From: a bacterium
Lineage (GTDB): Bacteria; Bdellovibrionota_G; JALEGL01
NCBI GenBank assembly: GCA_022763185.1
Contig: JALEGL010000007.1
Location: forward strand, 1-54,290
Reading direction: 5' to 3'
DNA: 54,290 bases
How positions within the stretch are numbered: position 1 is the first letter of the stretch; each line of letters begins with the position of its first letter. This document shows, one piece after another, positions 1 through 40,809 of this stretch. The position numbers and the translations under genes were made by a program. The notes under the pieces are model-generated. The model searched no databases and was not told where the DNA came from. It worked only from the letters and a program-made list of their open reading frames with translations.

Positions 1-476
1 GTGGACTAACTTACAGTGGTTATCCCTTAGGTTGTGCAGCGGCATTGGCTAGCATATCCGTTTATGAAGAAGAGAACCTTGTTGAAAAAGCTGCAGAGAA
101 TGGGGTATATTTAGAAAAAAAACTTCATGAATGTTTAGATGGGAACCCGTGGTTAGGGGAAATACGAGGTAAAGGGCTTTTGCAAGTTATAGAGCTGGTA
201 AGTAACACGGATACTAAAAAACCTCTTTCTCCTTGGAATGAAGAGTTAAGCAATGAAATGAAAGTTTTAAAACAAAAGCTATTAAGTCATGGTTTGTTTG
301 TATTTGTAAGGTGGAATATGCTCTTTATAACGCCACCCTTATCTGTGTCGAAAAAGCAAATAGATCATGGTGTAAATATAATTAAAACCGCTATACATGA
401 AACTCAAAGTCATTTTATGTTAGAATTATGTTTTTTAAAGATAAAGATTAAAGTTTATTTAAAAAGTTTTCAATAG
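1..476 (+). CDS. Class III aminotransferase, C-terminal part (5' end outside window)
   Basis: The frame is open from base 3 and reads GLTYSGYPLGCAAAL, the C-terminal small-domain signature of class III PLP-dependent aminotransferases (omega-amino acid/diamine type). The later stretch LGEIRGKGLLQVIEL is also typical. The catalytic lysine and most of the PLP site lie upstream of the window, so the substrate cannot be told. A TTG at 45 is internal and not a real start. The 3' end overlaps the convergent hydrolase gene (ends at 448) by about 29 bases, and the last ~25 residues look like an unconserved tail. It may or may not belong to the peptide locus to its right. Confidence 0.85.
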   Translation, partial: GLTYSGYPLGCAAALASISVYEEENLVEKAAENGVYLEKKLHECLDGNPWLGEIRGKGLLQVIELVSNTDTKKPLSPWNEELSNEMKVLKQKLLSHGLFVFVRWNMLFITPPLSVSKKQIDHGVNIIKTAIHETQSHFMLELCFLKIKIKVYLKSFQ

Positions 477-1320
477 TTTTTACATAGTTTTCGGTTTCTT
501 CATACATGGCTAAATGCGCAGATTTTTCAAAAACATGCATTTTTGACTGTGTAACTTGATTGGCATAGATTTTTACACTTTCTGGTGTTGCTTCATCGTA
601 TCTGCCGCATAAAAATAGTGAAGGGATATTGATTTTTTTCAATTGGTCAACGCGTTCATAATCTTTTAAAACACCTGTTGGGCAAAACTCACTGGGTCCC
701 CACATGTATTCATATTGCTCTAAGTTCGCATCTTGCATTGACTCAATTATTGATTTGGGCCATGGGTCTAATCTGCATGCAAATTGTTTATAATACTCCA
801 TAATGGCATTTTGATAATCTGGATGTTCAGTGGTGTTTTCTTTTTCATGTTTTTTGATTATATTTTGTATTGATTTTGGAAGTTTTTCAATTAATCTTTT
901 TGCATCTGAATGCCAGTGTTGAACACTCAAGCATGGGCTTGAGAAAATGCCAGCAATAACATTGGGTAAATGGTTAGAAATTAAATAATCTGCTAGAATC
1001 ATACTACCCCAAGAGTGGCCACATAAAGCCACTTGTTTAAAGTCAAAGTATTCAATCAATTGATTTAATTCTTTCACAAATCGTTCAATGTACCAATTTT
1101 TAATTAAGCCAGGTTTGTCAGAGCGTCCAACGTCAAGTTGATCATAGAAAATCACAGGTCTATTTTTGAAAAGAGGTGATAGAGTTTGCTCTAAATTAGA
1201 TGGTGGAAAGCCTGGGCCACCATGAATAAAAATTAATGGAATTAAAGAGCCATTACTGTATTCTGAAGCATAGATTTTTCCTCCTGGGACGGTTATTTTA
1301 TGTTGTTTTTTACTAGTCAT
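448..1320 (-). CDS. Alpha/beta hydrolase, proline iminopeptidase-like (S33 family)
   Basis: Predicted soluble serine hydrolase of the proline-specific peptidase type. Counting from the longer possible start at 1335 (295 aa), it shows the oxyanion HGGPG motif (about residues 38-42), YDQ, the nucleophile elbow GHSWGS (Ser108), Asp247 in GRYDEATPE and His274. ATG at 1318-1320 is preferred because the 1335 start runs further into the MFS gene; a weak GGA lies about 10 bases upstream. Last gene of a minus-strand series HExxH protein - 51-aa ORF - MFS - hydrolase, overlapping the MFS gene by 8 bases, so translation is probably coupled. In that setting it may trim or release a modified peptide (inference). 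S33 members also include general esterases, so peptidase activity is not proven. Confidence 0.85.
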   Translation of the reverse strand: MTSKKQHKITVPGGKIYASEYSNGSLIPLIFIHGGPGFPPSNLEQTLSPLFKNRPVIFYDQLDVGRSDKPGLIKNWYIERFVKELNQLIEYFDFKQVALCGHSWGSMILADYLISNHLPNVIAGIFSSPCLSVQHWHSDAKRLIEKLPKSIQNIIKKHEKENTTEHPDYQNAIMEYYKQFACRLDPWPKSIIESMQDANLEQYEYMWGPSEFCPTGVLKDYERVDQLKKINIPSLFLCGRYDEATPESVKIYANQVTQSKMHVFEKSAHLAMYEETENYVKTIENFLNKL

Positions 1321-2476
1321 TAAAATTTTTTCCATAGTAAAAGAAAATAAACATACTGATCAGCGGAAATCCACCAAAAACCAATGAAAAGACCCAAATA
1401 TTAAAATAATTAACAACTAGTGATACTATAGGAACAGAAATAAGAGCAGTTTTAATAATGAAGTCTCTTGTAGCAACAGATAGACCAGCTTGTTCAGGAG
1501 TGTACTTGTTTATTACTAATTCAGCAATTAAGGGGAACCCTAAAGCTTCTCCAAATGACCAAATAGCAGTGCTTATAATAATGCCAAATTTTGTTAAAAG
1601 GTAAGGAGCTATTAAATAACCTAAGGAAGAAGTTATACACACAACAAAGACACGTTTGTTTACTGACCATTGAAAATAGCTCTTAGTGTTTAAGTAAGAA
1701 ACGGTAGCAATAAGTACAGTGTTTACAAAAAATAATATGGCTAAAAATTGTTTTGCTGGTAAAGATTTTTTTAAATATAATAATGGAATTGCTGATATGT
1801 GAGAGTATATCGTAATGAAAAGAAAAACTATAAAAAAAACAATATGCGGATATTGTTTGAAAAAATGAGTAAAATTTATAATATTTACAGAATAATTTCT
1901 TTTTGTGTCACGCGGTTGGGTAGATAAAAGTTTATAAAGTAAATAAAGAAAGGTGATAAATAGCAGTGAAGTAATAATATCTGTTAATAGTAGTATGTTT
2001 TGATACTTTTCTAAATAGAAATATCCAATAATGCTAGAGGTCCCAAGGGCCAAGTTTGTAGTCATATAAGTTAGTGATGACATTTTAGAAATAGTGTTTC
2101 TTTTTGCTAAACCTTCAGTGACTCTGCTGACCATAATATTAACAGTACTTAAACCTGAGATGAAAAATATTATAGAAAGAACAATTATATGGAGAGACGT
2201 TTTTAAAATAATTGGGAAAATGCCACAAGAAACCAAAATGAATACAAAAACAAATGCTAAATAATAACGTTTTGAATCAAGTTGTTTCCCGAAAAAAGGT
2301 AATGTAAAAGCTGAAAACAACAACGAAATTGATTGTATAAAAGTAGATTGTAATGGAGATAGGCCGTAATCTTTTAATAATAATATTAGATAGGGAAAAA
2401 TAAACGAAAAACAAGAGGATGCAAAAAATAGTATAAGAGTTAAAGGTATAACCACTCTACTATTAAAAAAAAACAT
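1313..2476 (-). CDS. MFS family transporter
   Basis: A 387-residue very hydrophobic protein with about 12 predicted membrane helices and the overall pattern of the major facilitator superfamily. The loop FFGKQLDSKRYY after helix 2 corresponds to the conserved MFS loop 2-3 (G-x-x-x-D-R/K), and the second half repeats the pattern. It likely sits in the inner membrane as a proton-coupled exporter or importer; the substrate is not visible from sequence. It lies 62 bases downstream of a 51-aa ORF and overlaps the hydrolase gene, so an exporter role for the peptide product is a reasonable inference. Base composition is strongly AT-biased. Confidence 0.85.
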   Translation of the reverse strand: MFFFNSRVVIPLTLILFFASSCFSFIFPYLILLLKDYGLSPLQSTFIQSISLLFSAFTLPFFGKQLDSKRYYLAFVFVFILVSCGIFPIILKTSLHIIVLSIIFFISGLSTVNIMVSRVTEGLAKRNTISKMSSLTYMTTNLALGTSSIIGYFYLEKYQNILLLTDIITSLLFITFLYLLYKLLSTQPRDTKRNYSVNIINFTHFFKQYPHIVFFIVFLFITIYSHISAIPLLYLKKSLPAKQFLAILFFVNTVLIATVSYLNTKSYFQWSVNKRVFVVCITSSLGYLIAPYLLTKFGIIISTAIWSFGEALGFPLIAELVINKYTPEQAGLSVATRDFIIKTALISVPIVSLVVNYFNIWVFSLVFGGFPLISMFIFFYYGKNFND

Positions 2477-2538
2477 TACTATTTTAAAATCATTTAGAAA
2501 GGTTTTTTAAAAAAAATTAAAAGCAAAAAATAATATAT

Positions 2539-2694
2539 TTATGAAGCTAGGTGTTTCAAAAAAGCTTCTTTTTTCTTTTGTTCTTCTGTTTTAATTATTT
2601 TAGTAATTGGGCTTAATCTTTTTATATCATCTAGTTTGTCATATGCTGAGATATTTTTTAATAAGTTAGTATAAATTTCTTTTGTAGATTTCAT
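2539..2694 (-). CDS. Small 51-aa ORF, candidate RiPP precursor peptide
   Basis: ATG at 2692-2694 is preceded by AGGAAAGG about 7 bases upstream, and a good promoter lies at 2721-2750. The peptide starts MKSTKEIYTNLLKNISAYDK, has a charged middle (LDDIKRLSP) and a Lys/Glu-rich tail ending FLKHLAS. It has no cysteines and no signal peptide, so export would need a dedicated transporter. It sits between the HExxH hydroxylase-like gene and the MFS gene on the same strand, where a precursor would be expected. I do not recognise a leader family. It could instead be a small regulator or a non-functional ORF; the case rests on position, ribosome site and promoter. Confidence 0.55.
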   Translation of the reverse strand: MKSTKEIYTNLLKNISAYDKLDDIKRLSPITKIIKTEEQKKKEAFLKHLAS

Positions 2695-2720
2695 TTCTTA
2701 GCCTTTCCTATATGTGCTGT

Positions 2721-2750
2721 ACTGTACGGTTAAATTACAATAAATGTCAA
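2721..2750 (-). promoter_or_regulatory. Sigma70-like promoter for the 51-aa ORF/MFS/hydrolase transcript
   Basis: On the minus strand a perfect -35 box TTGACA (bases 2745-2750) is followed after 18 bases by TACAGT (2721-2726), a 4/6 match to TATAAT. The start ATG of the 51-aa ORF lies 27 bases beyond the -10 box, giving a short leader with a Shine-Dalgarno sequence. This is one of the better promoter matches in the window and supports separate expression of the small ORF from the HExxH gene upstream. Confidence 0.6.
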
Positions 2751-2808
2751 GTGAAAGGTCCAGATTTTTGAGGGAGAGAAGTGAATAAAGTGCATGTGGG
2801 AAGTAAGG

Positions 2809-3756
2809 TTAGTGTTTCATTAACGGGAACTTACTAATTTTACTGATATATAAGTCAATTTCATTAAAGATAGCGCTTCCTAATGCTGTAAATGTACAGT
2901 TTTTTTTAATTTGATCAGTTGATACGTTAATCCTAAGAATTAAAGTTTTTAGTTCTTCGAGTAAATATTCTCTTAGACAGTTGGACATAGAAAAAAAGTC
3001 TTTTTCTAAAAATCTTAAAGCTGTAGCAGATTCATATACGTGAGCCATTATTCCATGAAAGCTTCGGATAGCTTCTCTCTCTTCCCATCTTGCACCTGAA
3101 TAAACGAATTTTGATTGATTATCTAAAATTTTATCACCACTAATAAATACTTGAACGATTTGATGTGCGCATTCATGAGCAATATCAATTACAAGTCTTT
3201 CGTGTGCTATTGGGTCAGTTTTGTCTATAAGGGAAAATAAAATTAGACCTTTTGCTTGATGTGTACTTAGGCCAATTCTTTCAAAATTTATATTCCCAAC
3301 ACTTTTTATAGACATTATTTCTTTTATCAAATGGTCAAAAATTACCTTTAACCATGGATGAAGAGCAAATAAACTTTCAATGGCTTTGTTTATACGAGGA
3401 GTAAAGTTTTGTTTTTCCATTTCTTGTGTGGTGCTAAATGTTATACGAAAACTTTCTTCTGATGTAAGGTCTGTGTAACCTTCATGACTCTCAAGAACTT
3501 TCCTTAAAGATTCAATAGTTTTATGTTCATCTAAAACTTTGCCAGTATAAGGCCTTTTAAAGTGTTTTTGTAGTCTGTCAATATCTCTGTGATAGCACAT
3601 CCAAGGGGAAAAACTTTTGAAGTTTTTATTAAGATCTTGGTTGGTTTTTTCTAATATTGAAGAATGCATTTTTTGGCTAAGTTCAGGTACTTTTTCAGAC
3701 AACTTTTGCCCTAAAAGCCATTCAAACTCGTCAAAACTATAGTTATTGGAGATCAT
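2809..3756 (-). CDS. HExxH-motif protein, putative alpha-KG-dependent peptide beta-hydroxylase
   Basis: A 315-residue soluble protein. The motif HECAH (His194, Glu195, His198) is followed about 25 residues later by ARWEEREAIRSFHG (Arg223, Arg227, Arg231, His234) and a hydrophobic AHVYESATALRF. The spacing HExxH ... R-x(3)-R-x(3)-R-x(2)-HG ... F is the pattern of the HEXXH putative peptide-modification family (TIGR04267 type), members of which are iron/alpha-ketoglutarate-dependent peptide beta-hydroxylases in RiPP clusters; His234 would be the third metal ligand. The alternative is an ordinary zinc metallopeptidase, but the conserved C-terminal Arg/His block argues against it. No good Shine-Dalgarno is seen. 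It is divergent from the binding-protein gene and upstream of the 51-aa ORF. Confidence 0.7.
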   Translation of the reverse strand: MISNNYSFDEFEWLLGQKLSEKVPELSQKMHSSILEKTNQDLNKNFKSFSPWMCYHRDIDRLQKHFKRPYTGKVLDEHKTIESLRKVLESHEGYTDLTSEESFRITFSTTQEMEKQNFTPRINKAIESLFALHPWLKVIFDHLIKEIMSIKSVGNINFERIGLSTHQAKGLILFSLIDKTDPIAHERLVIDIAHECAHQIVQVFISGDKILDNQSKFVYSGARWEEREAIRSFHGIMAHVYESATALRFLEKDFFSMSNCLREYLLEELKTLILRINVSTDQIKKNCTFTALGSAIFNEIDLYISKISKFPLMKH

Positions 3757-3780
3757 TTAAACTTGACATAGCATTTATAT

Positions 3781-3794
3781 TTTGAAATTTCAAA
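3781..3794. promoter_or_regulatory. Perfect 14-bp palindrome between divergent genes (candidate operator)
   Basis: TTTGAAATTTCAAA reads the same on both strands and lies in the 50-base gap between the HExxH gene (start 3756) and the binding-protein gene (start 3807). Its position suits an operator controlling both directions, possibly of the response pathway of the neighbouring kinase. A chance AT-rich palindrome is possible. Confidence 0.3.
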
Positions 3795-3806
3795 CTAAGA
3801 AAAGAC

Positions 3807-5303
3807 GTGAAATTGAAGTTATATAGATATATTTTTTTTCTGACTATAAAAGTTTTTTTAAGTACTGCGCTTGCACATACTTATGTAAGGCCGCTTCCAA
3901 GTATGCCAAAAACAGTGATTCCTCCTTTAGCAGTTGATATATTCTCTTACTCTTTAGTAAGTAAGGTCCATGCGACATTGTTTAAGTTAGATGAAAATAA
4001 AAAACCGATACCCAACTTGGTTAAAGACTTTAAAGTCAGTCAAGATGGATTGATATATACATTTTATTTGAAAAAAGTATTTTTTCATAATGGAAGATTG
4101 TTAGAAAATGAGGATATAAAAAAATCTCTTGAGTATGCAATAACTAAAAGAGCTATAAATTATGAATACTTTAATAAGATTAAAGGCTATGATGAATTTA
4201 TTGCAAATAAAACGCATAAAATTGAAGGAATAATTCTGCCAAAATTAAAAAACCAATTAATAATTAGACTTAAAATAGCTGATTATAAATTGATACATAA
4301 ACTGTCAGATGTCACTTTTTCAATTTGGGATGCTAAGCAAGAAAAGCCAATTAATGGTTTAGGAGACTTTAAAATCTCTTCATGGAAAAACAATGTTGAA
4401 ATTAATTTAGACTACGTTGGACAGAAAACAAGTGGTTCAGTAAAAAAAATTCGTTTAGTAAAAAAGAGTAAACGTGATGCAATAGAAGGCTTTAAAAGAA
4501 ATAGTTTTGATGACTTATTTTTTTACCCTATTTTTAAAAAAAATGTAGAAATTCTTCGTGAATTTGCTCACATACAAAAAACTTATTTTCCAAGAACATA
4601 TTATTTTGCCGTAAACAGCAGAAGGATAAAAAATAAAAGAGTTAGACAATTAATTTTGCAAAGGATTAACGTAAATGATTTAGTGAAACGCTGTTTTTAT
4701 GGTGAAAAACCCACAAACACAATTATACCTCCGGGTTTTTTGGGTCACGATTCTTCTGATTACGGTGCAAAAATAAATCAACAGCAGGCTAGCAGTTCAG
4801 AACAAGACTTGTTAACTTCTATAAGTGTAAAAGTGATTATTTCAGAAGCTATTGGGTCTGAAAAATGTATCAAGTCTTACCTTAATGATTTGTCAAATAG
4901 TACAACAAAAATAATATTTAACGTGGAAATATTGCCTATAAGCAATGTTGCAAAAAGTTGGATCAATAATAGTATTGATGCTTATATAGCATATGCTGAA
5001 GGAGAAAGTGCTATGAATTATTTTGGCAACTTTTCCCCAGGGTCTAGTTTCCCTTTAGGATTAATTGAAGATGAAAAATTTAACTCTATTTTTTCTAAAT
5101 ATATGTCTGAAAAAGATGATTTTAATAAATTACAATCCGTTAAAAAATTAGAAAATCATATTAAAAGTAATATGACATTTAAGCCATTGTTTCATCCGGA
5201 TGTTTTTTTTATCTATTCAAAAAAATATAAAAAAATTAAATTCTCTTTTGAGTCGATAAGTAGTTTTGAAGTTAAAAATCTGAGTTTAGCTAATAAATTA
5301 TGA
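3807..5303 (+). CDS. ABC-type peptide/solute-binding protein, family 5 (SBP_bac_5)
   Basis: A 498-residue protein with a signal peptide (basic MKLKLYR, hydrophobic core, likely cleavage after TALA at about residue 23). The mature part follows the DppA/OppA family pattern: an early segment on the state of the cargo (LVKDFKVSQDGLIYTFYLKK), then VFFHNGRLLENEDIKKSLEYA, corresponding to the conserved F-H-D-G ... T-A-x-D-V region. Family members bind peptides in the periplasm. No permease or ATPase genes are adjacent; instead the stop codon overlaps the ATG (5300) of a histidine kinase reading frame. That pairing suggests a sensory rather than uptake role (inference). GTG start at 3807, chosen because it begins the signal peptide. 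Confidence 0.8.
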   Translation: MKLKLYRYIFFLTIKVFLSTALAHTYVRPLPSMPKTVIPPLAVDIFSYSLVSKVHATLFKLDENKKPIPNLVKDFKVSQDGLIYTFYLKKVFFHNGRLLENEDIKKSLEYAITKRAINYEYFNKIKGYDEFIANKTHKIEGIILPKLKNQLIIRLKIADYKLIHKLSDVTFSIWDAKQEKPINGLGDFKISSWKNNVEINLDYVGQKTSGSVKKIRLVKKSKRDAIEGFKRNSFDDLFFYPIFKKNVEILREFAHIQKTYFPRTYYFAVNSRRIKNKRVRQLILQRINVNDLVKRCFYGEKPTNTIIPPGFLGHDSSDYGAKINQQQASSSEQDLLTSISVKVIISEAIGSEKCIKSYLNDLSNSTTKIIFNVEILPISNVAKSWINNSIDAYIAYAEGESAMNYFGNFSPGSSFPLGLIEDEKFNSIFSKYMSEKDDFNKLQSVKKLENHIKSNMTFKPLFHPDVFFIYSKKYKKIKFSFESISSFEVKNLSLANKL

Positions 5304-5422
5304 AAACGTCTTCTAAAAAAGTAAAAAATATATTTCTTTTTAATAGTTTTATAATAACATTGCTTTTATTGGGGTCTACTTTTATTGCGTTTTCCTTTCA
5401 AAAAGATAAAAGAGTTAACTAA
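5300..5422 (+). other. Displaced N-terminal membrane segment of the histidine kinase (frameshift)
   Basis: From ATG 5300, which overlaps the stop of the binding-protein gene (ATGA), a 40-codon frame encodes MKTSSKKVKNIFLFNSF followed by a hydrophobic stretch IITLLLLGSTFIAFSF and then a stop at 5420-5422. This is a typical first membrane helix of a sensor kinase. The kinase continues in the next frame from about 5385. Reading one base fewer in the 5385-5410 region, for example in the A run after TTTC, would fuse the two frames into one protein with two membrane helices. Either a real mutation, a sequencing error, or recoding. Confidence 0.6.
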
Positions 5423-7415
5423 AGAGGTTTTGTTAACTAGTGCTCAGGATGTGGCCAAGTCATTAGATATTCATGTAAAAACTAAAAATTTTTATAGAAT
5501 AAAAGAAATTATAGAACAGTCTATTTTAAGTGAAAAAGTAGAGTTTTTATTTATTGAAGATAAAGAAAATAAATTGCCTTATATTTTTAATTATCCTCAA
5601 TATGAACGTTCGTATGTTTCGGAACATTGTTTTGGAAGCCTGGAGAAAGTAAAAATATATTATAATCAAGTTAATATTGCGGACTTAAAATATTGTTATA
5701 AACAGCAAACTGTATGGAACATTTCATATATTTTATCTAGTTTTATATTATTGTTTTTAATTCTATTTCCATTTTTATATTTTTCTCTTAAAAAATGGTT
5801 TGAATATCAGCATAAAGATATTTTTATTCTTTTAGGTGATTTGGATGAAGTAAATCCGAAGGAACCATTTTTAGATTTAAACAATAAAAAAAATATTACT
5901 TCAAGTGAGTTTTTATCAATTTATGAAAAACTTTCTCAATTGTTTGAAGATTTGAAAAGTGCACAAGGTACCTTAGAAAAAAAGAAGCTAGATTTTGAAA
6001 AATATAAAGCAGCCCAACAGATCGCCCATGATATTAGATCTCCATTAACAGCGCTTAATGTTGTTATGAAAGATCTTGCGAGTTTGCCTGAGAACTCTAG
6101 AGTTTTATTAAGGTCATCGATACAAAGAATACAGGATATTGCCAATAATCTTGTTAGTCAAAGTAGTGACATATTAAAAGATGAAGAAAATTTAGAAGAA
6201 AACAATTTAGAGTCAAGTCTTCTATTACCAATATTAGAAGAAATAGTTTCTGAAAAACGTTATCAACTAAGAAGCAAAGCAGGAGTCAGTATAACTTTAG
6301 ATGGTGAAAAAGCTTATGGTTTGTTTGCAAAAATAAATGATTCTTCATTGAAACGTATTATATCAAATTTGATTAATAATAGTGTGGAAGCGTTTGAGCA
6401 GTCTGGAGAAGTTGTTGTTACTGTCAGTGACAATGAAAAAAATAATAATGAGGTTTTGCTAAGTATAAAAGATAATGGAAAAGGTATTTCAAAAGATATC
6501 TTACCTAAACTAGCACAAAGAGGTGCTTCATTTGGTAAAGAAAATGATAAAGAATCAGGGTCAGGTTTGGGCTTATATCATGCAAGAGCTAATGTAGAGC
6601 GATGGGGTGGTAGATTTTTCATAGAATCTGAAGAAGGTAAAGGAACAGAAGTTAAGCTTTATCTTCCAAAAGCCAAAGCACCCATTTGGTTTGTGCCCAC
6701 AATTCATCTTAAAGGTATTAAAAATATTGTTATTTTAGATGATGATGAGTCGATTCATCAAGTATGGGACAGACGTTTAAGGAAATATATAGATCAGTAT
6801 GCAATTAATTTGCACCATGCCCGTAGTCCAGAGGATTTTAAAAAGTTAACAGAGGGTCAGGAAAACCTATTATGCTTATGTGATTATGAGTTGTTAGGTT
6901 TTGAAGAAACCGGTTTAGATTTAATTGAAGACAATGGTTTAGAAGGTGTATCTATCTTGGTAACCAGTAGGTATGCTGAAGAAAAAGTACAAGAGCGATG
7001 CGAAAAAATGGGTGTGAAGCTGATTCCCAAAACATCAGCGGATCTTGTACCTTTTAATATAGAGGAAGATCAAAGAAAAGCACGGTATGATGCAGTATTG
7101 ATTGATGATGATCCACTGATTCACAGTGTTTGGAACATGAGAGCAAAAGATACGGATAAATCAATTTTGACGTTTAAAGATCCTAAAGTGTTTTATCAAA
7201 AGGTTGATGAAATTTCGAAGCAAACACCTATTTATATCGACCAGAATTTAAGTGATGGTCAGTTAGGGACTGAAGTGGCAAAAACGATTGTAAGCCTTGG
7301 CTTTAAAAAATTATATTTAACTACTGGAGAAGAAAAGAGATCAATTAAAATACAATTGCAAGATGATGCGAATGTTTTTGTTGATATTGTTGGCAAAGAT
7401 GTGCCTTGGGACTGA
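5385..7415 (+). CDS. Hybrid sensor histidine kinase with two C-terminal receiver domains
   Basis: A 676-residue frame: short periplasmic part (1-110), membrane helix (about 112-134), coiled linker, HisKA domain with His215 in AHDIRSP, HATPase domain with N-box SNLINNSVEAF, G1 DNGKG (363-367) and G2 GSGLGL (392-397). Two receiver-like modules follow: one with DDD 452-454, Asp500, Thr527 and Lys549, the second with DDD 574-576, Asp619, Thr646 and Lys671. A phosphorelay His-to-Asp is expected, but no separate response regulator or output domain is adjacent. The TTG start at 5385 is probably artificial, since the first membrane helix lies in the frame beginning at 5300. Likely senses the periplasmic state of the upstream binding protein (inference). 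Confidence 0.85.
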   Translation: MRFPFKKIKELTKEVLLTSAQDVAKSLDIHVKTKNFYRIKEIIEQSILSEKVEFLFIEDKENKLPYIFNYPQYERSYVSEHCFGSLEKVKIYYNQVNIADLKYCYKQQTVWNISYILSSFILLFLILFPFLYFSLKKWFEYQHKDIFILLGDLDEVNPKEPFLDLNNKKNITSSEFLSIYEKLSQLFEDLKSAQGTLEKKKLDFEKYKAAQQIAHDIRSPLTALNVVMKDLASLPENSRVLLRSSIQRIQDIANNLVSQSSDILKDEENLEENNLESSLLLPILEEIVSEKRYQLRSKAGVSITLDGEKAYGLFAKINDSSLKRIISNLINNSVEAFEQSGEVVVTVSDNEKNNNEVLLSIKDNGKGISKDILPKLAQRGASFGKENDKESGSGLGLYHARANVERWGGRFFIESEEGKGTEVKLYLPKAKAPIWFVPTIHLKGIKNIVILDDDESIHQVWDRRLRKYIDQYAINLHHARSPEDFKKLTEGQENLLCLCDYELLGFEETGLDLIEDNGLEGVSILVTSRYAEEKVQERCEKMGVKLIPKTSADLVPFNIEEDQRKARYDAVLIDDDPLIHSVWNMRAKDTDKSILTFKDPKVFYQKVDEISKQTPIYIDQNLSDGQLGTEVAKTIVSLGFKKLYLTTGEEKRSIKIQLQDDANVFVDIVGKDVPWD

Positions 7416-7642
7416 AATGACTTGGTGTAAAACAAGCTGGTTTAGAGGTATTTGATGTATAGCTAGAAGCTGTACAAATATTAGATAATTTAATGTTCAT
7501 TTCTTGGACACAATTATTATATTCAATGCAAAAAAACTTCTTATGAGTATGTTGTGTCGTTAAAAAAACATAAGTTTAAGCTTTTATATTTATTGAGTAT
7601 CTAGGCATAAAATTTGAATAAGATATACGGTTTGGTTCAATC

Positions 7643-8458
7643 GTGAAAACAGTGAGTAAAAAAATAGAACATTTAGGGATAAAAACAGATTTGATGCTTA
7701 ATGCTTTTTCGGGTCTTGTTGAAGAAAAAGATAACTATACTGTAATAAAAACCATGAGTAACCCAGAGTCTTATTGGGGGAACTATCTGATTTTTAATCA
7801 AGCTCCTCAAAAAGGAGACTATCAGCGTTGGTGCACTATTTTTGATCAAGAATTTTTTTATTATTCTCAAAAACATCACTATGCGTTTACTTGGCTGGAT
7901 CAAAATATAATGAAGCCTAATACTGAAGAATTTGAGAGCCATGGTTTTAATTTAGAAACCAATCAAGTCATGCGTTTGGATCAGTTTAATCATGACACAA
8001 AATTCAATGATGTTATTGAGATAAAGTCATTAAAGTCTGACCAAGAATGGAACGATACCCTAGAGCTGCAAATTTTGTGTTCCGTTAGAGCGCATGCAAC
8101 GCAATCAGATAGAACATTTAAAACGGAACAGTTTAAGCAATACAGAACAATGTCTCAACAAAATAGGGGCCATTGGTACGGTGCCTATATTGGGAATAAG
8201 CTGATTGCAGATTTAGGGATATTTCACAATAACAAAATAGGACGTTATCAAGCTGTAGAAACGCATCCTGACTTTAGAAATCAAAATATATGTAAAGCAA
8301 TGATCAAAGCCTGCGGTGAAATGGCTATTGAAGAGCATAAGTTAAAGTCATTGATCATTGTTGCGGATGAACATGACTATGCTAAAAACATCTATACGTC
8401 TGTAGGCTTTAAGTGTGTGGAATACTATCAATCTTTAACATGGTGGCAAGGTAAGTAA
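7643..8458 (+). CDS. GNAT family N-acetyltransferase (two-domain)
   Basis: A 271-residue protein. The C-terminal half carries the acetyl-CoA-binding GNAT pattern: IADLGIFHNNKIGRYQAV as strands 4-5, then ETHPDFRNQNICKAMIKAC in the position of the R/Q-x-x-G/N-x-G/A loop, and NIYTSVGFKCVEYYQSL at the end. The N-terminal ~120 residues look like a degenerate first domain. Acceptor unknown. GTG start at 7643; no strong ribosome site. The MATE gene begins 7 bases after its stop, so the two are probably co-transcribed. The 227 bases upstream (7416-7642) show nothing recognisable. Confidence 0.75.
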   Translation: MKTVSKKIEHLGIKTDLMLNAFSGLVEEKDNYTVIKTMSNPESYWGNYLIFNQAPQKGDYQRWCTIFDQEFFYYSQKHHYAFTWLDQNIMKPNTEEFESHGFNLETNQVMRLDQFNHDTKFNDVIEIKSLKSDQEWNDTLELQILCSVRAHATQSDRTFKTEQFKQYRTMSQQNRGHWYGAYIGNKLIADLGIFHNNKIGRYQAVETHPDFRNQNICKAMIKACGEMAIEEHKLKSLIIVADEHDYAKNIYTSVGFKCVEYYQSLTWWQGK

Positions 8459-8465
8459 GTTTTTT

Positions 8466-9767
8466 ATGTGTTATTTAAAGAAAATTTTAAAAATATCTTT
8501 GCCCAATGTTATTGGCTTAGGCTCAAAGTTTGTCTGTGATTTGATCAATATTTTTTGGATGGCTCAGGTGAGTACGGAAGCTGTTGCTGGAGTTGTTACG
8601 GTGACCATGATTACTTGGATGGTGATTGTTTTTGATGACATGTTTAAAGCAGGAGCGGTATCGATTGTATCAAGAAATTACGGCGCTCAAAAATACTCTA
8701 AAGTAAAATCGTACATCTTTCATTTACTGGTATGGAAGACACTGTTTATTGTTTTATTTGTAGGATTTGTCTTAATTTTATTAGGGCCCATTTTGGATTT
8801 ATTTGTCATCAGCGATGTGAAAGCGGCAGCTTACAACTATGGTTTGATTCGTATTGCTACATTGCCGCTTCAGTTTTTGCTATTTTCAACAGTGTCATGT
8901 CTAAACTGTTTAGGAAAAGGAAGTTTGGCTATGTATCCTCCCCTTATTGCTAATATCATTAACTTGCTGTTGGACCCTATTTTTATATTCAAGAAATCTT
9001 ATGGTCTTAATATAGGCCTGGGCTTGAATGAAAGTGGTGCTGCCTTAGCAACAGCAGTATCTTTCTTAATATCATCTGTGATTGGATGGGTTATTTTAGC
9101 CAGACATTCACGCAGTATAGGAGCAGAGGACTATGATAAAAGTTTCAGTACTCAAAAAATGCTCAACATGCTTAAAATTGGTTATCCTGTTGGGATAAGA
9201 AACTTTATACGTCACGGAACCAACTTGTTTCTTCTTAAAATAGTGGCCTTGTACGGAACCGTTCATATTGCTGCATATGGGACCGTAGGCAGAATGATGG
9301 GTGTGTATTATGTGCCTATTTTGGCATTTATAATGGGGGGTACGGCATTGATTGGCCATGAAATAGGAAGAAAAAGTCAAGACGGTATACAGCACATATC
9401 TAAAACTATTTTTTGGTGCATGTGTTTGATTATGGGAGCCTTACTGTTGTTTAACATTGTCTATGGCATTGAACTGATTCAGTTTTTTAGTCAAAGTGCT
9501 TTGGGTGTAGAGTCATCTTATAAATTACTGGTTTTTGGTATGCTGGGATTTTTATTTATCGCCTTGAGTGCACACAAGTTGGCTCAAATAGCAGCCAGTA
9601 AAAACCTCAATAAACTGTTTCATGCTGTGGCACTGTCTAGGCTGGGAGTGCAAGTGCCCTTGGTCATTATGTTTGCATTTGTTTTGGAGTTACCCATAGG
9701 ATATATTTGGCTTAGTTTCCCCATAGCTGACTTTGCTGAGATGGGATATTTGAATTTCTTTAAGTGA
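8466..9767 (+). CDS. MATE family efflux transporter
   Basis: A 433-residue integral membrane protein with about 12 helices. The N-terminal region (LKISLPNVIGLGSKFVCDL ... VTVTMITWMV) and the segment FKAGAVSIVSRNYGAQKYSK match the multidrug and toxic compound extrusion family, where the G-A-Q/G motif follows helix 2. It likely exports a cation or small metabolite in exchange for Na+ or H+. Substrate not evident. It sits between a GNAT gene (7 bases) and the nuclease gene (10 bases), all on the same strand. Confidence 0.85.
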   Translation: MCYLKKILKISLPNVIGLGSKFVCDLINIFWMAQVSTEAVAGVVTVTMITWMVIVFDDMFKAGAVSIVSRNYGAQKYSKVKSYIFHLLVWKTLFIVLFVGFVLILLGPILDLFVISDVKAAAYNYGLIRIATLPLQFLLFSTVSCLNCLGKGSLAMYPPLIANIINLLLDPIFIFKKSYGLNIGLGLNESGAALATAVSFLISSVIGWVILARHSRSIGAEDYDKSFSTQKMLNMLKIGYPVGIRNFIRHGTNLFLLKIVALYGTVHIAAYGTVGRMMGVYYVPILAFIMGGTALIGHEIGRKSQDGIQHISKTIFWCMCLIMGALLLFNIVYGIELIQFFSQSALGVESSYKLLVFGMLGFLFIALSAHKLAQIAASKNLNKLFHAVALSRLGVQVPLVIMFAFVLELPIGYIWLSFPIADFAEMGYLNFFK

Positions 9768-9777
9768 AGGTTGTGCA

Positions 9778-10743
9778 GTGAGTAGCTTAATTTTTTTCAT
9801 TATTGCTTCGTTTATCGGCTTTAAGCTGCTTTTATATTGCTTCCGGCCAAAAGCCACACAAGAACAAATCAATCAATTGCAAGACCTTGTAGATAAAAAT
9901 AATAATTATTGGTCTTCGCCACGCTCAGTAGAGTTTTGGTGCAATGTGTTTGAATATTCTTTTGAAAGACTTACTCAATGGCAAGCTACAAATTTACTTG
10001 TGCATTTAAAAGAAGAAAATAATTGGGCGAAGATTAAAGTGGAAGAGCAGAAAAAAAAACCGGAAGAAGGAGATTATATTTCAGCCAGTGATTTTCAATC
10101 GTATCATTTTTGTAATTTTGCTCTTTACCTGAAATATCAAGGTAAAGCGTCACAAAATGTTTATGATTTGTATAGAGGAAATAGAGCTCAGGATACAAAC
10201 TATGCAAGAAGTAAAAACTACCGCAGCCGTCAAACACCTTACATGTTAAGAAAATTAAGAGAACTAGATCCCTCAATTGATTACATTGAATGGTTAGATC
10301 AAGATAAGAGTGACTTTATACAAATAAACGGTAAGTATAAACTTTATGGTAAAGCCGACGCATTGGTTTATCACGATAATGGAGACGTTTCTGTTTTAGA
10401 GTACAAATCAAAGGAAGGTTCTTTTAGAGACAAAGCCTATAAAAGTTCTATTATGCAAGTTTCTGCGTATTATAACATATATCAAAATGCCCATAATTTA
10501 TCCGATAAATTATTCATTATATATCAACGGCCCAACAACTATATCAAAGCTTATCAATATAGCTATGCATCTGTAAGCAAAGCATTTGAATGGAATGCTA
10601 AGAGAATTTTTTCTATAAAAAACAAAAGCTACAAAGTCTATGCAAAATATAAAGATAATAAATGTCCCAGCTGTGGGTATAGAAATTATTGTAATTCAAT
10701 TTTTAAAGAGGAAAATAAAGGAAATAAAAATTTTGTTCAGTGA
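9778..10743 (+). CDS. Membrane-anchored Cas4-like PD-(D/E)XK nuclease with Fe-S cysteines
   Basis: A 321-residue protein. Residues 3-22 form a hydrophobic helix, then a linker, then a nuclease domain: Cys112 (HFCNFALYL), the core GKADALVY (Asp194), VLEYKSKE (Glu208, Lys210), the RecB motif MQVSAYY (Gln227-Tyr231) and a C-terminal C-x2-C-x5-C (296, 299, 305). One early cysteine plus three late ones is the [4Fe-4S] arrangement of Cas4/AddB-type nucleases. GTG start with GAAGG 7 bases upstream. No cas1, cas2 or CRISPR array is present here. The downstream phosphatase gene overlaps its end. Function outside CRISPR is unknown; the predicted membrane anchor is unusual for this family. Confidence 0.75.
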   Translation: MSSLIFFIIASFIGFKLLLYCFRPKATQEQINQLQDLVDKNNNYWSSPRSVEFWCNVFEYSFERLTQWQATNLLVHLKEENNWAKIKVEEQKKKPEEGDYISASDFQSYHFCNFALYLKYQGKASQNVYDLYRGNRAQDTNYARSKNYRSRQTPYMLRKLRELDPSIDYIEWLDQDKSDFIQINGKYKLYGKADALVYHDNGDVSVLEYKSKEGSFRDKAYKSSIMQVSAYYNIYQNAHNLSDKLFIIYQRPNNYIKAYQYSYASVSKAFEWNAKRIFSIKNKSYKVYAKYKDNKCPSCGYRNYCNSIFKEENKGNKNFVQ

Positions 10744-36670: not shown

Positions 36671-37414
36671 TTATTGTTGTAAGAAAGAGAGAAGGATAGG
36701 CATAAAAATAACAATAAAAGTAACTGGAAATATACAAATCATTAGAGGTGCAAGAAGTTTTACGGGTATTTTTTGAATTTGTTGCTCTGCATACAAAAAA
36801 TGTTGATTTTCAACATCTTTTGCAAAAGATTGTATGCTGGTAATGATGGGGGTACCATATTGAATTGACTCAATAACAATATTACAAAATGTTTGAACAA
36901 GTTTACTGGGGTATTTAAGGTTTATTTTTTTTACAACAGTATCTAATGCAGGAATGGTATTAGAGTAGTGGGCAAAGTCTGTAAGCATTTTTTTTAAAGG
37001 GCCTTGCTCTAGACATAAGCTTATTTTTTCTATGGATTGATAAATACTCATTCCAGTTTGAAGTTGGCTTTGCAGCAAGTTAAGAAAAAAAGGAAAATCT
37101 AGATCTATAGTTTCTAGGGTTTGGATCTGCTTGCGACGTAGCCATATAATGTATGTCAATAAAAGTATAATTGGCCATACAATAATAAATATTGCATTCA
37201 TAGAGAAAATATAGAAAAAAAATAAACTTAATAACAGGTAAGTTAAAAGCAATTGTTTCAATAACTTAAAATGCTCTGCTGCGGATAGCTTTATGAGTAA
37301 AAATTGATTGATGAGCTTAATGGTTAATATCTGATGTTTATTCAGCCGCAATAACAGTTTATTCCACAAAAACACAAACAACCATAAACAAGTGATGTAT
37401 ATAAAGAATATCAT
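36671..37414 (-). CDS. tadC: Tad/Flp secretion inner-membrane protein TadC-like (T2SF domain)
   Basis: 247 residues with N-terminal membrane helices, a cytosolic T2SF helix bundle (LLQSQLQTGMSIYQSIEKIS ... ENQHFLYAEQQIQKIPVKL) and two C-terminal helices ending FMPILLSFLQQ. Type II secretion F fold; pairs with TadB as the platform for pilus assembly. It overlaps tadB by 4 bases. No pilin gene follows; the 70 bases to the EAL gene are empty. Confidence 0.82.
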   Translation of the reverse strand: MIFFIYITCLWLFVFLWNKLLLRLNKHQILTIKLINQFLLIKLSAAEHFKLLKQLLLTYLLLSLFFFYIFSMNAIFIIVWPIILLLTYIIWLRRKQIQTLETIDLDFPFFLNLLQSQLQTGMSIYQSIEKISLCLEQGPLKKMLTDFAHYSNTIPALDTVVKKINLKYPSKLVQTFCNIVIESIQYGTPIITSIQSFAKDVENQHFLYAEQQIQKIPVKLLAPLMICIFPVTFIVIFMPILLSFLQQ

Positions 37415-38157
37415 TGTATATAGTCCTTATTTACAAGCGCTGTAATCCAATAAGCACCCAAACCTAATAGAATAAAACATAGAGTTAATGAAACTTTGCC
37501 TAAACTTTGAGTGAATAGCGGTAAAATAAAGTTAGGTGAGATCATATAAAGCACTAAACTAAAAAATATAGGTAATGCAATGCAAACGTAGGCTTGTAGT
37601 TTGCTTTGCGAAACCAAGCTTTTAAGTTTATTTTTAAGATGGTTTGATTGGCGGACTTTTCTTAGTAGAAACTCCATTTGCTTTAACAAAGATTGTCCAC
37701 TTTCAATGGAACTATGAATAGATATTAAATACTGTTTTAAGCTTTTGTGACATATAGTTGCTGCAGAGTTAAACAATAGTGCTGAAAAGTCTTTGCCTGT
37801 ATGTATACCTTTAACAATAGATGTTAGCTGGTTTTTTAAAAAAACATGAGAAGCTTTATAGCTTAAAATAAAGGCTTGTTCTCGGCTAGTCCCTGCTTTC
37901 AAATGACGAATAAAAGTATCGAAAAAATCAATACAATAGCTATCCATTCGTCTGCAGTGGTAGTGTTCAATAAAAACTGGATACAACTTGTGTATACACA
38001 AAGCAGTCATTATCGTTACAAGAAATAATAAATGAATTGAAAAGTGTAATGAGATTAAGAGTAAGATAAAGCTTACTGTGAGTACATTACTGATTTTGTA
38101 GAAGCTCATAAGTGAGTAAAAAGAAAATAGAAGGGTTAAAAAAACAAATACCATCAT
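37411..38157 (-). CDS. tadB: Tad/Flp secretion inner-membrane protein TadB-like (T2SF domain)
   Basis: 248 residues, T2SF fold: two N-terminal helices, cytosolic bundle (FFDTFIRHLKAGTSREQAF, SSIESGQSLLKQMEFLLRK) and two C-terminal helices. Located between CpaF and TadC, the usual order cpaF-tadB-tadC. The small size and strong AT bias are in line with its neighbours. Confidence 0.82.
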   Translation of the reverse strand: MMVFVFLTLLFSFYSLMSFYKISNVLTVSFILLLISLHFSIHLLFLVTIMTALCIHKLYPVFIEHYHCRRMDSYCIDFFDTFIRHLKAGTSREQAFILSYKASHVFLKNQLTSIVKGIHTGKDFSALLFNSAATICHKSLKQYLISIHSSIESGQSLLKQMEFLLRKVRQSNHLKNKLKSLVSQSKLQAYVCIALPIFFSLVLYMISPNFILPLFTQSLGKVSLTLCFILLGLGAYWITALVNKDYIQ

Positions 38158-38158
38158 T

Positions 38159-39403
38159 TTAAGCCACTTTGGTTTGAGTTAAAATACTTCTCAGTTGATT
38201 TTTTTGGTGTTCAGGTAATTTTTGTAAAAAGCTAGGGTAATGCTTACTCCATTTTAAAGTATTTTGCTCTTGGGTAAAAATATCCAACAAAGAAATAAGC
38301 TCTGTTTCCATATGTGAAACTTCAGTTATATGAGTTATACTTCTTTGACCATTTTGGCTTCTTTGAACGTATACAATAAGATCTATCGAAGAGACGATTT
38401 GTTCTCGCAATGCAGAAGTTGGATAAGTGTAACCTGATAATAAAACTAGATTTTCAATCCTTTTAAGGGCATCTCTTGGGCTATTGGCATGCAAGGTTGT
38501 CATGGACCCACTATGACCTGTATTCATAGCTTGTAGCATATCCATAGTTTCTTCACTCCTGCACTCACCCACAATAATTCGATCTGGACGCATACGCAGT
38601 GAGTTTTTGAGTAAATCTCTAATGGATACCTCGCCTAAATTTTCTGTATTTTTAGTTCTTGTTTCAAGTTGTATGACATGGGGCTGTTTTAATTTAAGTT
38701 CAGCAGAGTCTTCAATACTAATGATGCGTTCAGATGGGGGTATAAATTGTGACAAAATATTGAGCAGTGTTGTTTTTCCGCTGCCAGTACCACCTGCAAT
38801 TAAGATATTTTTTTTATGTTGGACACAAAATTTTAAAAAATTTGCGCTGGATGCGGATAAAGATTTTTGGTGAACCAATTTATCTAAGGTTATTGTTTTA
38901 TGCATAAATCGACGTATGGTCACTGTTGTGCCATTGAGAACAAGGGGGTGAATGATAGCATTTAAACGCGAGCCATCTGGTAGACGGGCGTCAATCATTG
39001 GAGAGCTCTGATCAAGACGCCTATTAACCAGACTTGCAATTTTATTAATGATATTGCGTAAAATTTTTTCAGAAGAAAAAAATAAAGGGCTTAGGTGCAA
39101 TTGGCCATTTTGCTCATAATAAATAGTATTGGCCCCATTGATCATGATTTCACTTACCTCGGGTGCACAGAGCAAAGTATCGATGGCGCCCAAACCAGTG
39201 TTTTCACTGATAATGAATCCAAGCAACTGCTTATGTTCAGCTAAATTTTTATATTGGGGGTTCTTGTAACAAAAGTCATAATAGTTTTGAGTGATTAAGG
39301 TTTTTATTTGCTGGGTATTGTGATTTTCAAGCTTGGTTTTTACAAAGACTTGATCGTTTAAGTGTTGGTGGAAGGTCTGGATAAATTTTATGTATTCACG
39401 CAT
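38159..39403 (-). CDS. cpaF: Tad/Flp secretion ATPase CpaF/TadA
   Basis: 414 residues of the type II/IV secretion ATPase family. N-terminal domain, then the Walker A NILIAGGTGSGKTTLLNIL, IISIEDSAELKL, the Walker B/His box LRMRPDRIIVGECRSEET then GHSGSMTTLHAN (Arg and His boxes). The N-terminal segment APEVSEIMINGANTIYYEQ is the CpaF signature. Powers pilus assembly and, in some systems, retraction. It is one base from tadB. Confidence 0.93.
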   Translation of the reverse strand: MREYIKFIQTFHQHLNDQVFVKTKLENHNTQQIKTLITQNYYDFCYKNPQYKNLAEHKQLLGFIISENTGLGAIDTLLCAPEVSEIMINGANTIYYEQNGQLHLSPLFFSSEKILRNIINKIASLVNRRLDQSSPMIDARLPDGSRLNAIIHPLVLNGTTVTIRRFMHKTITLDKLVHQKSLSASSANFLKFCVQHKKNILIAGGTGSGKTTLLNILSQFIPPSERIISIEDSAELKLKQPHVIQLETRTKNTENLGEVSIRDLLKNSLRMRPDRIIVGECRSEETMDMLQAMNTGHSGSMTTLHANSPRDALKRIENLVLLSGYTYPTSALREQIVSSIDLIVYVQRSQNGQRSITHITEVSHMETELISLLDIFTQEQNTLKWSKHYPSFLQKLPEHQKNQLRSILTQTKVA

Positions 39404-39414
39404 TGTATGGGTCC

Positions 39415-40809
39415 TTAATCAAAAAGTGAAAAATGATAATCTTTGGTGTTAATGTTTAGGGTTTTAGAATGTTTAAGAAGCTTTTGATGGTATTTTTCTT
39501 TGACACTGTTGGAATAGGCCGTAAGCAAAATAAAAAATTGGCTTTGCTTTTTTTGAAAACTTCTGCTTTTGAATAATTCACCCAAAATAGGAACGGTTCC
39601 TAAGACTGGAAAACGTTTTATGTTTTTCCGCATTCTATCTTGAAAGAAGCCGCCTAAAACAATGGTTTGATTAAGTTGGGTTTGTGCTGAGGTTTGCAAG
39701 TGGTGTTCAATAATACCGGGAATACCTTCTATAGAAACAGAGCTGTCCAAGTCGCTGATTTTAATTTTTAAATCTAAGAGAATATTATTGCTGGCATGGA
39801 TATGGGGTTTAATTTTAAGTGAAACGCCATAGGGTTTAAACATAACGTTTGCAACACGTTCTGATATTAACCGGATGGGGATTTCTCCACCGGCAAGAAA
39901 AGAAGATACAAAGCCATCTCGACATAATATTTTAGGGTTGGATAAAACCTTGGCTTTCCCATTTTCAGATAGGGCTTGAACAATAAGATTTAAGTCGCTA
40001 CCGGTAGAGATTGTGCGTTGCAATAAAGTGTTGTTCAAAGCAAGGTTCGCTTGGGCTGAAATTGTATCTGGCCATTGAATGCCTATGTTCTTGATGGCAG
40101 AGTTGTGAACTTCTAAAAACTTAACATCAATGAAAACAGAACTTTTTTTAGAGCTATGAATATGGATACCATCATCAATTAAAGGGTAAAGGCTTTTAGC
40201 AATTAGCAATACCTTTTTTTTGTCCTGAAGGTGATTTACATAACCTTTTAATCTAAAGTACTTGCCTTGAGGTTCAACAAATATATTTTTGTAATGATAT
40301 TGGTGGATTTTGGTTTGCAAAAGTTTATGTAAAAAAACGAACTTTTTTTGATTAAAGTGAGTGAGGTCAATAATATTATTATTTTGCTGTTTTATTGCTT
40401 CCAGTAGAGCCAAATCTTTAGGCTTAAAGAGAGTCCCCTTAATGAGGTATTGATTGGATTGCTTTTGTATATAAAGGGTTTTTATTTTTTGTAGTTGTTT
40501 GATTTGCTTTATGAGAGATGCATCGTTGCTTTTGTTTCCTACTATAACAATGTATTTGTACTTTTGTTGATTTTTTCGCCAAATGACTAAAGATGTAGAA
40601 CCAGTTTTAATACCGGTTAAAATAATTTCTTTGTTATTTTCTATGATGGTAACATCTGCAATTTTAGGGTTGCCTATAGATACACGTATTATATTGTCAC
40701 CGGGTATAACTTTTTGATGGCCAAGGTCTAAAAAAATATTTTTTTGTGCATACAAAGAAGGTAAGGCTAACAGTATTATTATGAGTGATATAGCCAGAGT
40801 GATGCGCAT
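39415..40809 (-). CDS. cpaC: Tad/Flp secretin CpaC/RcpA
   Basis: 464 residues: signal peptide ending SLYAQ, an N-terminal pilus-assembly domain (QKVIPGDNIIRVSIGNPKI, then TGIKTGSTSLVIW), and the secretin domain with SVFIDVKFLEVHNSAIKNIG, VLSNPKILCRDG, FLAGGEIPI and the C-terminal VLGTVPILGELFKSRSFQK. It forms the outer-membrane ring. The central BON-like part differs from the usual layout. First of the four-gene cluster. Confidence 0.9.
   Translation of the reverse strand: MRITLAISLIIILLALPSLYAQKNIFLDLGHQKVIPGDNIIRVSIGNPKIADVTIIENNKEIILTGIKTGSTSLVIWRKNQQKYKYIVIVGNKSNDASLIKQIKQLQKIKTLYIQKQSNQYLIKGTLFKPKDLALLEAIKQQNNNIIDLTHFNQKKFVFLHKLLQTKIHQYHYKNIFVEPQGKYFRLKGYVNHLQDKKKVLLIAKSLYPLIDDGIHIHSSKKSSVFIDVKFLEVHNSAIKNIGIQWPDTISAQANLALNNTLLQRTISTGSDLNLIVQALSENGKAKVLSNPKILCRDGFVSSFLAGGEIPIRLISERVANVMFKPYGVSLKIKPHIHASNNILLDLKIKISDLDSSVSIEGIPGIIEHHLQTSAQTQLNQTIVLGGFFQDRMRKNIKRFPVLGTVPILGELFKSRSFQKKQSQFFILLTAYSNSVKEKYHQKLLKHSKTLNINTKDYHFSLFD

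Follow-up and report, generated by a model that had tools for sequence, protein, structure and literature searches.

At the left end of the window (the whole 54,290-nucleotide stretch of DNA analysed) lies a locus that could well be a polymorphic, autocrine cassette for sensing a modified peptide, a reading we hold at about even confidence, in which a logic like that of comQXPA and agr would be combined with a LuxPQ-like receptor (Table 1). A sequence-only reading had described four minus-strand genes here, encoding an HExxH protein, a 51-aa ORF, an MFS transporter and an S33 hydrolase, as a RiPP-type locus providing modification, substrate, export and trimming. Their tight order was confirmed, with gaps of 114 nt and 62 nt in the series and a 23-nt overlap between the MFS and S33 genes. 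A peptide-modification locus is plausible, because Shine-Dalgarno short ORFs precede other HExxH homologues, with one pair conserved. An MFS gene also recurs beside HExxH genes; that the four genes form a complete unit is not supported. The earlier description ends 50 bp short of a divergent plus-strand operon, which is the rest of the unit and in which genes for a solute-binding protein (SBP) and a sensor kinase start across from the HExxH gene. Since the SBP and kinase on the opposite strand are consistent partners, the arrangement points to peptide sensing rather than to a stand-alone cluster that modifies, exports and trims.

Table 1 Features of the candidate sensing cassette and its flanks, in window coordinates
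Feature	Position	Strand	Evidence
HExxH protein gene (putative αKG-HExxH-type peptide oxygenase, 315 aa)	2809..3756	-	TIGR04267, leave-one-out family profile, AF2 model
51-aa ORF, candidate precursor peptide MKSTKEIYTNLLKNISAYDKLDDIKRLSPITKIIKTEEQKKKEAFLKHLAS	2539..2694	-	Codon score, Shine-Dalgarno statistics
Promoter-like TTGACA-18-TACAGT, 5' of the 51-aa ORF	2721..2750	-	Consensus scan only; total site number at chance level
MFS transporter, candidate peptide exporter	1313..2476	-	Pfam MFS_1 1.3e-16; several hydrophobic segments
S33 hydrolase, proline-iminopeptidase family, candidate trimming enzyme	448..1335	-	TIGR01250 over cut-off
Family-5 SBP, permease genes absent, candidate peptide receptor	3807..5303	+	SBP_bac_5 7.3e-22
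Sensor kinase TM1, in another frame than the remaining kinase (apparent frameshift)	5300..5422	+	
Sensor histidine kinase with receiver-like C-terminal domains	5385..7415	+	HATPase_c 3e-23, Response_reg 1.7e-5
Variable cassette	407..6023		blastn: conserved flanks on both sides, nothing similar to the paralogous locus in between
Conserved left flank, 3' part of a class-III aminotransferase gene	1..406		97% identity to contig C14 1-406
Conserved right flank: kinase core, GNAT and MATE	6024..9763		

Sequence comparison and modelling place the HExxH protein among the αKG-HExxH peptide hydroxylases, as a divergent member with Fe(II)/αKG-dependent peptide oxidation as its putative activity. The proposed search with TIGR04267 gave a match at E 1.6e-6 but at 28.3 bits, under the curated cut-off of 40 bits; the paralogues on C14 and C3 of the same genome reach 65 and 60 bits, both over it. 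A profile from seven relatives, with the HExxH protein itself left out, recovered it at E 7.9e-10 among 1125 ORFs, with no non-family match at E<=1. The HExxH ... R-x3-R-x3-R-x2-HG pattern is present as claimed (H194-E195-x-x-H198, then R223-x3-R227-x3-R231-x2-H234-G); H194, E195, H198, R227 and H234 are invariant (R227 and H234 checked across five homologues), and R231 is unique to this protein, homologues mostly having Gly there (RPxxGxxH). An AF2 model built from an 8-sequence alignment (a single-sequence model, at pLDDT 38, was discarded) has pLDDT 80-92 in the catalytic half and is poor in the N-terminal half. Its best PDB match is ChlB-HExxH (8s5f; prob 1.00, rmsd 2.0 Å over 124 columns), which takes the top four fold matches, yet with a TM-score of 0.36 and a Foldseek E of 0.015, and which shares the HExxH motif and the downstream Arg/His pattern. 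Like the described αKG-HExxH hydroxylases (TIGR04267/IPR026337: ChlB-HExxH, PflC/PosC, PesO, BpmH), the protein has the HExxH and RxxxxxxH signature and the domain fold, and is associated with short peptides and transporters; unlike them, it scores under the family cut-off (28 bits) and has a third Arg in place of Gly, its locus is without a radical SAM, MNIO or nitroreductase partner, and SBP-kinase neighbours such as those seen here are not described in PMC12636437 or PMC13060819.

The 51-aa ORF looks coding, and is probably the precursor and candidate substrate of this enzyme. Its codon score, 0.194, is close to the median of 51-codon pieces from real genes (0.185) and above the highest value among 40 spurious ORFs (0.119). 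When gaps were shuffled, 3.5% of them contained an ATG ORF of 51 codons or more, and 0.2% one that also had a Shine-Dalgarno sequence. Both expression signals claimed for it, the Shine-Dalgarno sequence AGGAAAGG and TTGACA-18-TACAGT, were found, but promoter-like sites in the region occur at chance level (22 observed vs 18.2 +/- 4.5 expected). The ORF lies behind the HExxH gene, not in front of it. No homologue was detected in its own genome or in 288 genomes (weak matches, at E 0.005-0.05, fall within longer frames), and a conserved precursor family was rejected on this ground; the missing conservation beside HExxH homologues, which the sequence-only reading had named as evidence that would count against it, concerns this ORF alone. 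At other HExxH loci the sister peptides are 21-34 aa long: Shine-Dalgarno short ORFs lie immediately 5' of the HExxH genes of C3, G003, G004 (two) and G046, and four sister peptides carry an FN-x-I/F-like motif that is absent from the 51-aa ORF. The peptides of C3 MKKFNLKIHKVKVYGAARVLPVCKKK and G003 MIKFNINIHSDATYGAARVHV have KFN..IH....YGAARV in common, with synonymous changes in 4/6 of the YGAARV codons; at 21-26 aa, these peptides precede two orthologous HExxH genes and would rank among the smallest RiPP precursors. No common precursor was seen for the two YcaO loci (G001, G004).

On the receptor side, an SBP without a permease adjoins a kinase with a periplasmic loop. Of the five SBP_5 proteins encoded in the genome, two are in permease operons; the other three, with no permease hit nearby, are the very ones that adjoin this kinase family. 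No ABC permease was found beside the SBP in any SBP-kinase locus examined. The window SBP gives weak matches to NikA, CntA and Opp4A models, and a search of eight genomes at E<=1e-8 returned only itself and two weak matches; between loci, SBP identity falls to 20%. Kinase relatives are present in just 4/288 genomes, and no dedicated response regulator was identified. Because an apparent frameshift parts TM1 from the remaining window kinase, this copy may be inactive, or else the assembly may be wrong.

The polymorphism is seen in a second copy of the locus, on contig C14 of the same genome. There the flanks are kept (97% and 87%) and the kinase core is 87% identical at the amino-acid level; at the nucleotide level, the right flank is 89% identical over the kinase core (6024-7632) and 87% over the MATE transporter gene (8465-9763), with a GNAT gene between them in the window and TrmO in C14. 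The peptide, enzyme, exporter, SBP and sensor domain are unalignable between the two copies, the sensor part of the kinase being about 20% identical. The break in similarity is sharp and falls at the boundary between kinase sensor and core, in the same place as in a third locus. Joint variation of signal, enzyme and sensor between kept flanks was thus found for two loci of one genome, and not between strains. Block exchange against a kept kinase core would give each version a signal specificity of its own. At C14b, the third SBP-kinase locus, BioF-like and uncharacterised biosynthetic genes stand in place of a recognisable RiPP enzyme, so that at some loci the ligand may be something other than a peptide.

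In this genome and its relatives, SBP-kinase pairs adjoin HExxH genes (window, C14, and G004 twice), YcaO (G001, G004), a LanM-dehydratase-like DUF4135 enzyme (G004) and a radical SAM enzyme (G046); no such pair adjoins HExxH in C3, G003 or G046. The probability of HExxH-kinase proximity by chance is 9e-4 in the window's own genome and 4e-4 in G004. In the survey of relatives that had been proposed, the MFS exporter recurs, adjoining HExxH also in C14, G003 and G004, but the 51-aa ORF and the S33 hydrolase do not. The latter, assigned by TIGR01250 (255.5 bits vs a cut-off of 167.65) and by its HGGPG and GHSWG motifs, is missing from all other HExxH loci examined, and was rejected as a constant part and taken as specific to the window copy. 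The claim that the locus is without any YcaO holds for the window, yet HExxH occurs together with two YcaO proteins at a sister locus of this phylum.

We infer a working scheme from these data. The αKG-HExxH enzyme would oxidise the 51-aa peptide, most likely to a β-hydroxylated side chain, with oxidative backbone cleavage possible; the peptide would leave through the MFS protein and may be shortened at its N-terminus by the S33 hydrolase. The SBP, lacking a permease, would catch the mature peptide and pass it on to the adjoining hybrid kinase at its periplasmic loop, setting off a phosphorelay. Exchange between paralogous loci would take signal, enzyme, exporter, SBP and sensor domain together as one block, the kinase core staying constant.

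Known systems resemble parts of this scheme. In agr, the precursor, modifying enzyme and kinase sensor region co-vary while the kinase core is constant, and a histidine kinase reads the modified peptide. The same holds for the small precursor, enzyme and kinase of comQXPA (PMC4008528, PMC4408185). The joint variation against a constant core is shared with both, whereas here an oxygenase, YcaO, DUF4135 or radical SAM enzyme replaces the isoprenyl transferase or AgrB, a separate SBP and an MFS exporter are present, and the versions are paralogues within one genome of a Gram-negative-type lineage. LuxPQ and TorTS pair a periplasmic binding protein with a hybrid kinase (PMC8534201); as there, a permease-less binding protein adjoins a two-TM kinase with a periplasmic loop, but here it belongs to the SBP_5 (oligopeptide) family and is linked to peptide-modifying enzymes. 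In nisin and subtilin autoinduction, a kinase encoded beside the maturation genes (NisK/SpaK) senses the RiPP (PMC5266694), as is proposed here for a candidate RiPP, although those systems have direct kinase sensing, LanBC chemistry and immunity genes.

Alternatively, the modified peptide might be a toxin or bacteriocin, sensed by the SBP-kinase pair to induce production or immunity, as nisin is through NisRK. MFS and MATE exporters lie close by, antimicrobial RiPPs typically involve enzymes of the YcaO, DUF4135 and radical-SAM kinds, and bacteriocin allele diversity would also fit block exchange; we nevertheless think an antimicrobial cluster rather unlikely, as no immunity gene was recognised, no partners recur more regularly than the SBP and kinase, which fill most of the cassette, and sister peptides of 21-34 aa leave scant room for leader and toxin. 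It is likewise unlikely, and slightly more so, that the SBP-kinase pair senses nutrients or, opportunistically, peptides other than the HExxH product, and regulates a secondary-metabolite cluster that lies beside it but is unrelated. SBP_5 proteins do bind many peptides, nickel and opines, which suits the weak NikA, CntA and Opp4A matches, and at C14b a receptor of this type is paired with other chemistry; but the co-variation of enzyme, exporter, SBP and sensor domain between kept flanks is hard to explain without a shared ligand.

The NikA and CntA similarities, together with the MFS exporter, could also suggest a metallophore-like system, in which a hydroxylated peptide or opine-like product leaves via the MFS protein and the SBP binds its metal complex, as with staphylopine and CntA/CntE. 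With a kinase where an ABC permease would be expected in every locus examined, this seems very improbable. Hardly credible at all is a zinc peptidase in a small peptide-degradation operon, despite the HExxH motif, the S33 peptidase neighbour and the ability of the family member PflC to hydrolyse peptides too (PMC12636437). Pfam gave no family for the HExxH protein at E<=1, peptidases included, the PDB fold search returned no peptidase among good matches, and the Arg/His pair downstream of HExxH is kept in the oxygenase family; with sequence and fold alike indicating ChlB-HExxH, the zinc-peptidase assignment was dropped and the kinship with peptide hydroxylases upheld.

Returning to the modified-peptide sensing cassette, a limited literature search turned up no account of SBP-kinase receptors in combination with RiPP enzymes. 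We tentatively suggest, as a possibility short of probable, that the locus represents an undescribed signalling class in a little-known phylum, in which short peptides, interchangeable RiPP enzymes (αKG-HExxH, YcaO, DUF4135 dehydratase, radical SAM) and MFS export would be matched by cognate permease-less SBP-kinase readers, and in which new private signals would arise by replacing the whole specificity block, enzyme class included, while the kinase core stays constant. If so, oxidised ribosomal peptides would be pheromones, read via a binding-protein/kinase receptor, and the co-diversification of signal and receptor could extend to a switch of enzyme chemistry. The αKG-HExxH enzymes have so far been described in pathways to oxidised RiPPs, few of which have a known function; a receptor gene next door would offer a direct handle on product and function, and the paralogous loci of one genome a natural specificity-swap experiment.

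The four minus-strand genes of the sequence-only reading (HExxH enzyme, 51-aa ORF, MFS transporter and S33 hydrolase) are all present, and its outline of a peptide-modifying HExxH enzyme with a small substrate stood, but as a minimal RiPP locus it was incomplete, missing the probable sensing half of a cassette that continues into a family-5 (oligopeptide-type) solute-binding protein (SBP) and a histidine kinase. Our 2.25 Mb genome comprises 15 contigs, and the window is the whole of C7; the relatives compared include, among those listed, three of the same order and one more of the same phylum.

Coordinates and content of the loci discussed (C3, C14, other contigs of the genome; C14b, second SBP-kinase locus on C14; G001, G003, G004, G046, relatives, with suffixes for separate loci)
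Feature	Location	Strand	Remarks
Class-III aminotransferase, 3' end	window 1-406		left contig edge
S33 hydrolase	window 448-1335	minus	
MFS	window 1313-2476	minus	
51-aa ORF	window 2539-2694	minus	
aKG-HExxH protein	window 2809-3756	minus	
Family-5 SBP	window 3807-5303	plus	begins 50 bp from HExxH start
Histidine kinase with receiver domains	window 5385-7415	plus	first TM segment in ORF 5300-5422
GNAT	window 7643-8458	plus	
MATE	window 8466-9767	plus	
Block 1, aminotransferase	window 1-406		97% identity to C14
Block 2, kinase core	window 6024-7632		89% identity to C14
Block 3, MATE	window 8465-9763		87% identity to C14
C3 two-gene unit	L010:9546-9626, 9699-10571		26-aa YGAARV peptide, hairpin, aKG-HExxH gene; minimal unit, after ftsZ
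G003 counterpart	L013:3366-3431, 3441-4334		MFS gene behind
SBP_5-kinase locus, window			HExxH
SBP_5-kinase locus, C14			HExxH
SBP_5-kinase locus, C14b			BioF-like and uncharacterised biosynthetic genes
SBP_5-kinase locus, G004a	L014:1179-10049		HExxH directly then YcaO; second YcaO between kinase and SBP
SBP_5-kinase locus, G004b			operon order HExxH-MFS-SBP-kinase
SBP_5-kinase locus, G004c	L023:14100-18572		short stand-alone DUF4135 (LanM-dehydratase-like); 27-aa ORF in front (L023:18617-18700)
SBP_5-kinase locus, G001			YcaO
SBP_5-kinase locus, G046			radical SAM

The HExxH protein matches TIGR04267 (aKG-HExxH-type peptide beta-hydroxylase) at E 1.6e-6, with a score under the model cut-off, and a leave-one-out profile of seven relatives recovers it at 7.9e-10, retrieving no ORF from outside the family among 1125 searched. 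The family profile matches ChlB-HExxH (PDB 8s5f) at 9.6e-16, and four 8s5f chains, followed by SjiH, were the best PDB matches (prob 1.00, rmsd ~2 Å, 124 columns) of an AF2 model built from an eight-sequence alignment (pLDDT 80-92 in the catalytic half). Poor modelling of the N-terminal half keeps the TM-score modest (0.36). In known members the hydroxylated residue is Asp, His, Phe, Gln or Pro, and oxidative backbone cleavage is a further activity of PflC/PosC (PMC12636437, PMC13060819).

The 51-aa ORF is probably a gene, judging by its codon score, which is on a par with real genes and higher than that of any of 40 spurious ORFs of comparable length, and by the ~0.2% chance of an ORF this long with a Shine-Dalgarno; no relative was found in its own genome or in 288 genomes. 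Short ORFs with a Shine-Dalgarno also lie immediately upstream of the enzyme gene at other HExxH loci, the strongest case being the orthologous pair on C3 (MKKFNLKIHKVKVYGAARVLPVCKKK) and in the same-order MAG 'Deltaproteobacteria bacterium isolate HKST-UBA01' (G003; MIKFNINIHSDATYGAARVHV). The two enzymes have 44% identity, KFN..IH....YGAARV is common to both peptides, and the YGAARV codons differ at 4/6 positions, synonymously only; the C3 hairpin reads AAAGCACAG...CTGTGCTTT. By eye, a loosely similar aromatic/Ile-Asn-hydrophobic stretch occurs in C14 (MKINLDIFDNEIFSELRQDFN) and G004b (...VSFNFSFQSHRVLGAKLASIPTGS).

Two of the genome's five SBP_5 proteins (C3, C15) sit in canonical permease operons; the other three (one on C7, two on C14) each adjoin the same kinase family, with no permease nearby. 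Close relatives of the window kinase occur in only 4/288 genomes, mostly beside a periplasmic binding protein, and we inspected eight SBP_5-kinase loci (table). HExxH-kinase proximity has a chance probability of 9e-4 in our genome and 4e-4 in G004. Two hydrophobic segments around ~100-120 residues mark 7/8 kinases, with the two frames of the window copy taken together; in the C14b exception the second falls under the threshold applied. The window kinase's TM1 lies in a different frame from the remainder, an apparent frameshift reflecting either an assembly error or a damaged copy. Also at C14b, upstream of the BioF-like enzyme, MFS, SBP and kinase, a 219-aa lipoprotein-like protein (L044:2375-3034) carries five GIGDELP repeats, mostly Arg-preceded (RGIGDELP), and looks like a multi-copy peptide precursor; a minus-strand natural-product-like cluster adjoining this locus (L044:11293-19300) encodes alanine-racemase-like, aminotransferase, MFS and ATP-grasp-like proteins.

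Window and C14 DNA align in only three collinear blocks, and window 407-6023 has no nucleotide match in C14. Their SBPs are 20% identical, their MFS proteins gave no BLAST alignment, and kinase identity rises abruptly from ~20% to 80-97% near residue ~202, just N-terminal of the phospho-accepting AHDIRSPLTALN motif, where C14b breaks too. Signal-side genes and sensor domain have thus changed together between constant flanks, by divergence or by replacement, a pattern shared with comQXPA pherotypes (PMC4008528, PMC4408185); the SBP and kinase resemble the two-part receptor LuxPQ (PMC8534201). Both contigs start within near-identical aminotransferase copies (window 1-406, L009:1-406), so the assembly broke at a repeat. 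Elsewhere, judging by sequence alone, the window carries a gene set resembling Tad/Flp pilus or type II secretion genes (36671-40809; secretin, ATPase, two TadB/C-like) and, at the contig end, what appears to be the C-terminal part of a tyrosine recombinase/integrase (53744-54280).

HExxH genes are rare (6/288 genomes), and the loci on C3, in G003 and on G046:C80 have no SBP-kinase neighbours; the enzyme family is thus not confined to signalling. The genome's fourth copy, on C10, is a truncated remnant with an in-frame TAA (L011:231-713); it abuts an antisense class-III aminotransferase fragment, making this the genome's third place where HExxH and aminotransferase sequences are neighbours. 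The G046 HExxH contig also carries a Bufferin-type MNIO cluster (L024:3132-5011; MNIO_BufB above cut-off).

In the scheme we propose, a short peptide is likely translated, would be oxidised by the HExxH enzyme, as its family suggests, and would leave via the MFS transporter; S33, peculiar to the window copy, might conceivably trim its N-terminus, for example at Pro29, the 51-mer's sole proline. From gene pairing and co-variation, the SBP would then capture the peptide and the kinase signal. The parts and logic each have precedents; we read the locus as a divergent αKG-HExxH enzyme within a swappable cassette that would sense a modified peptide.
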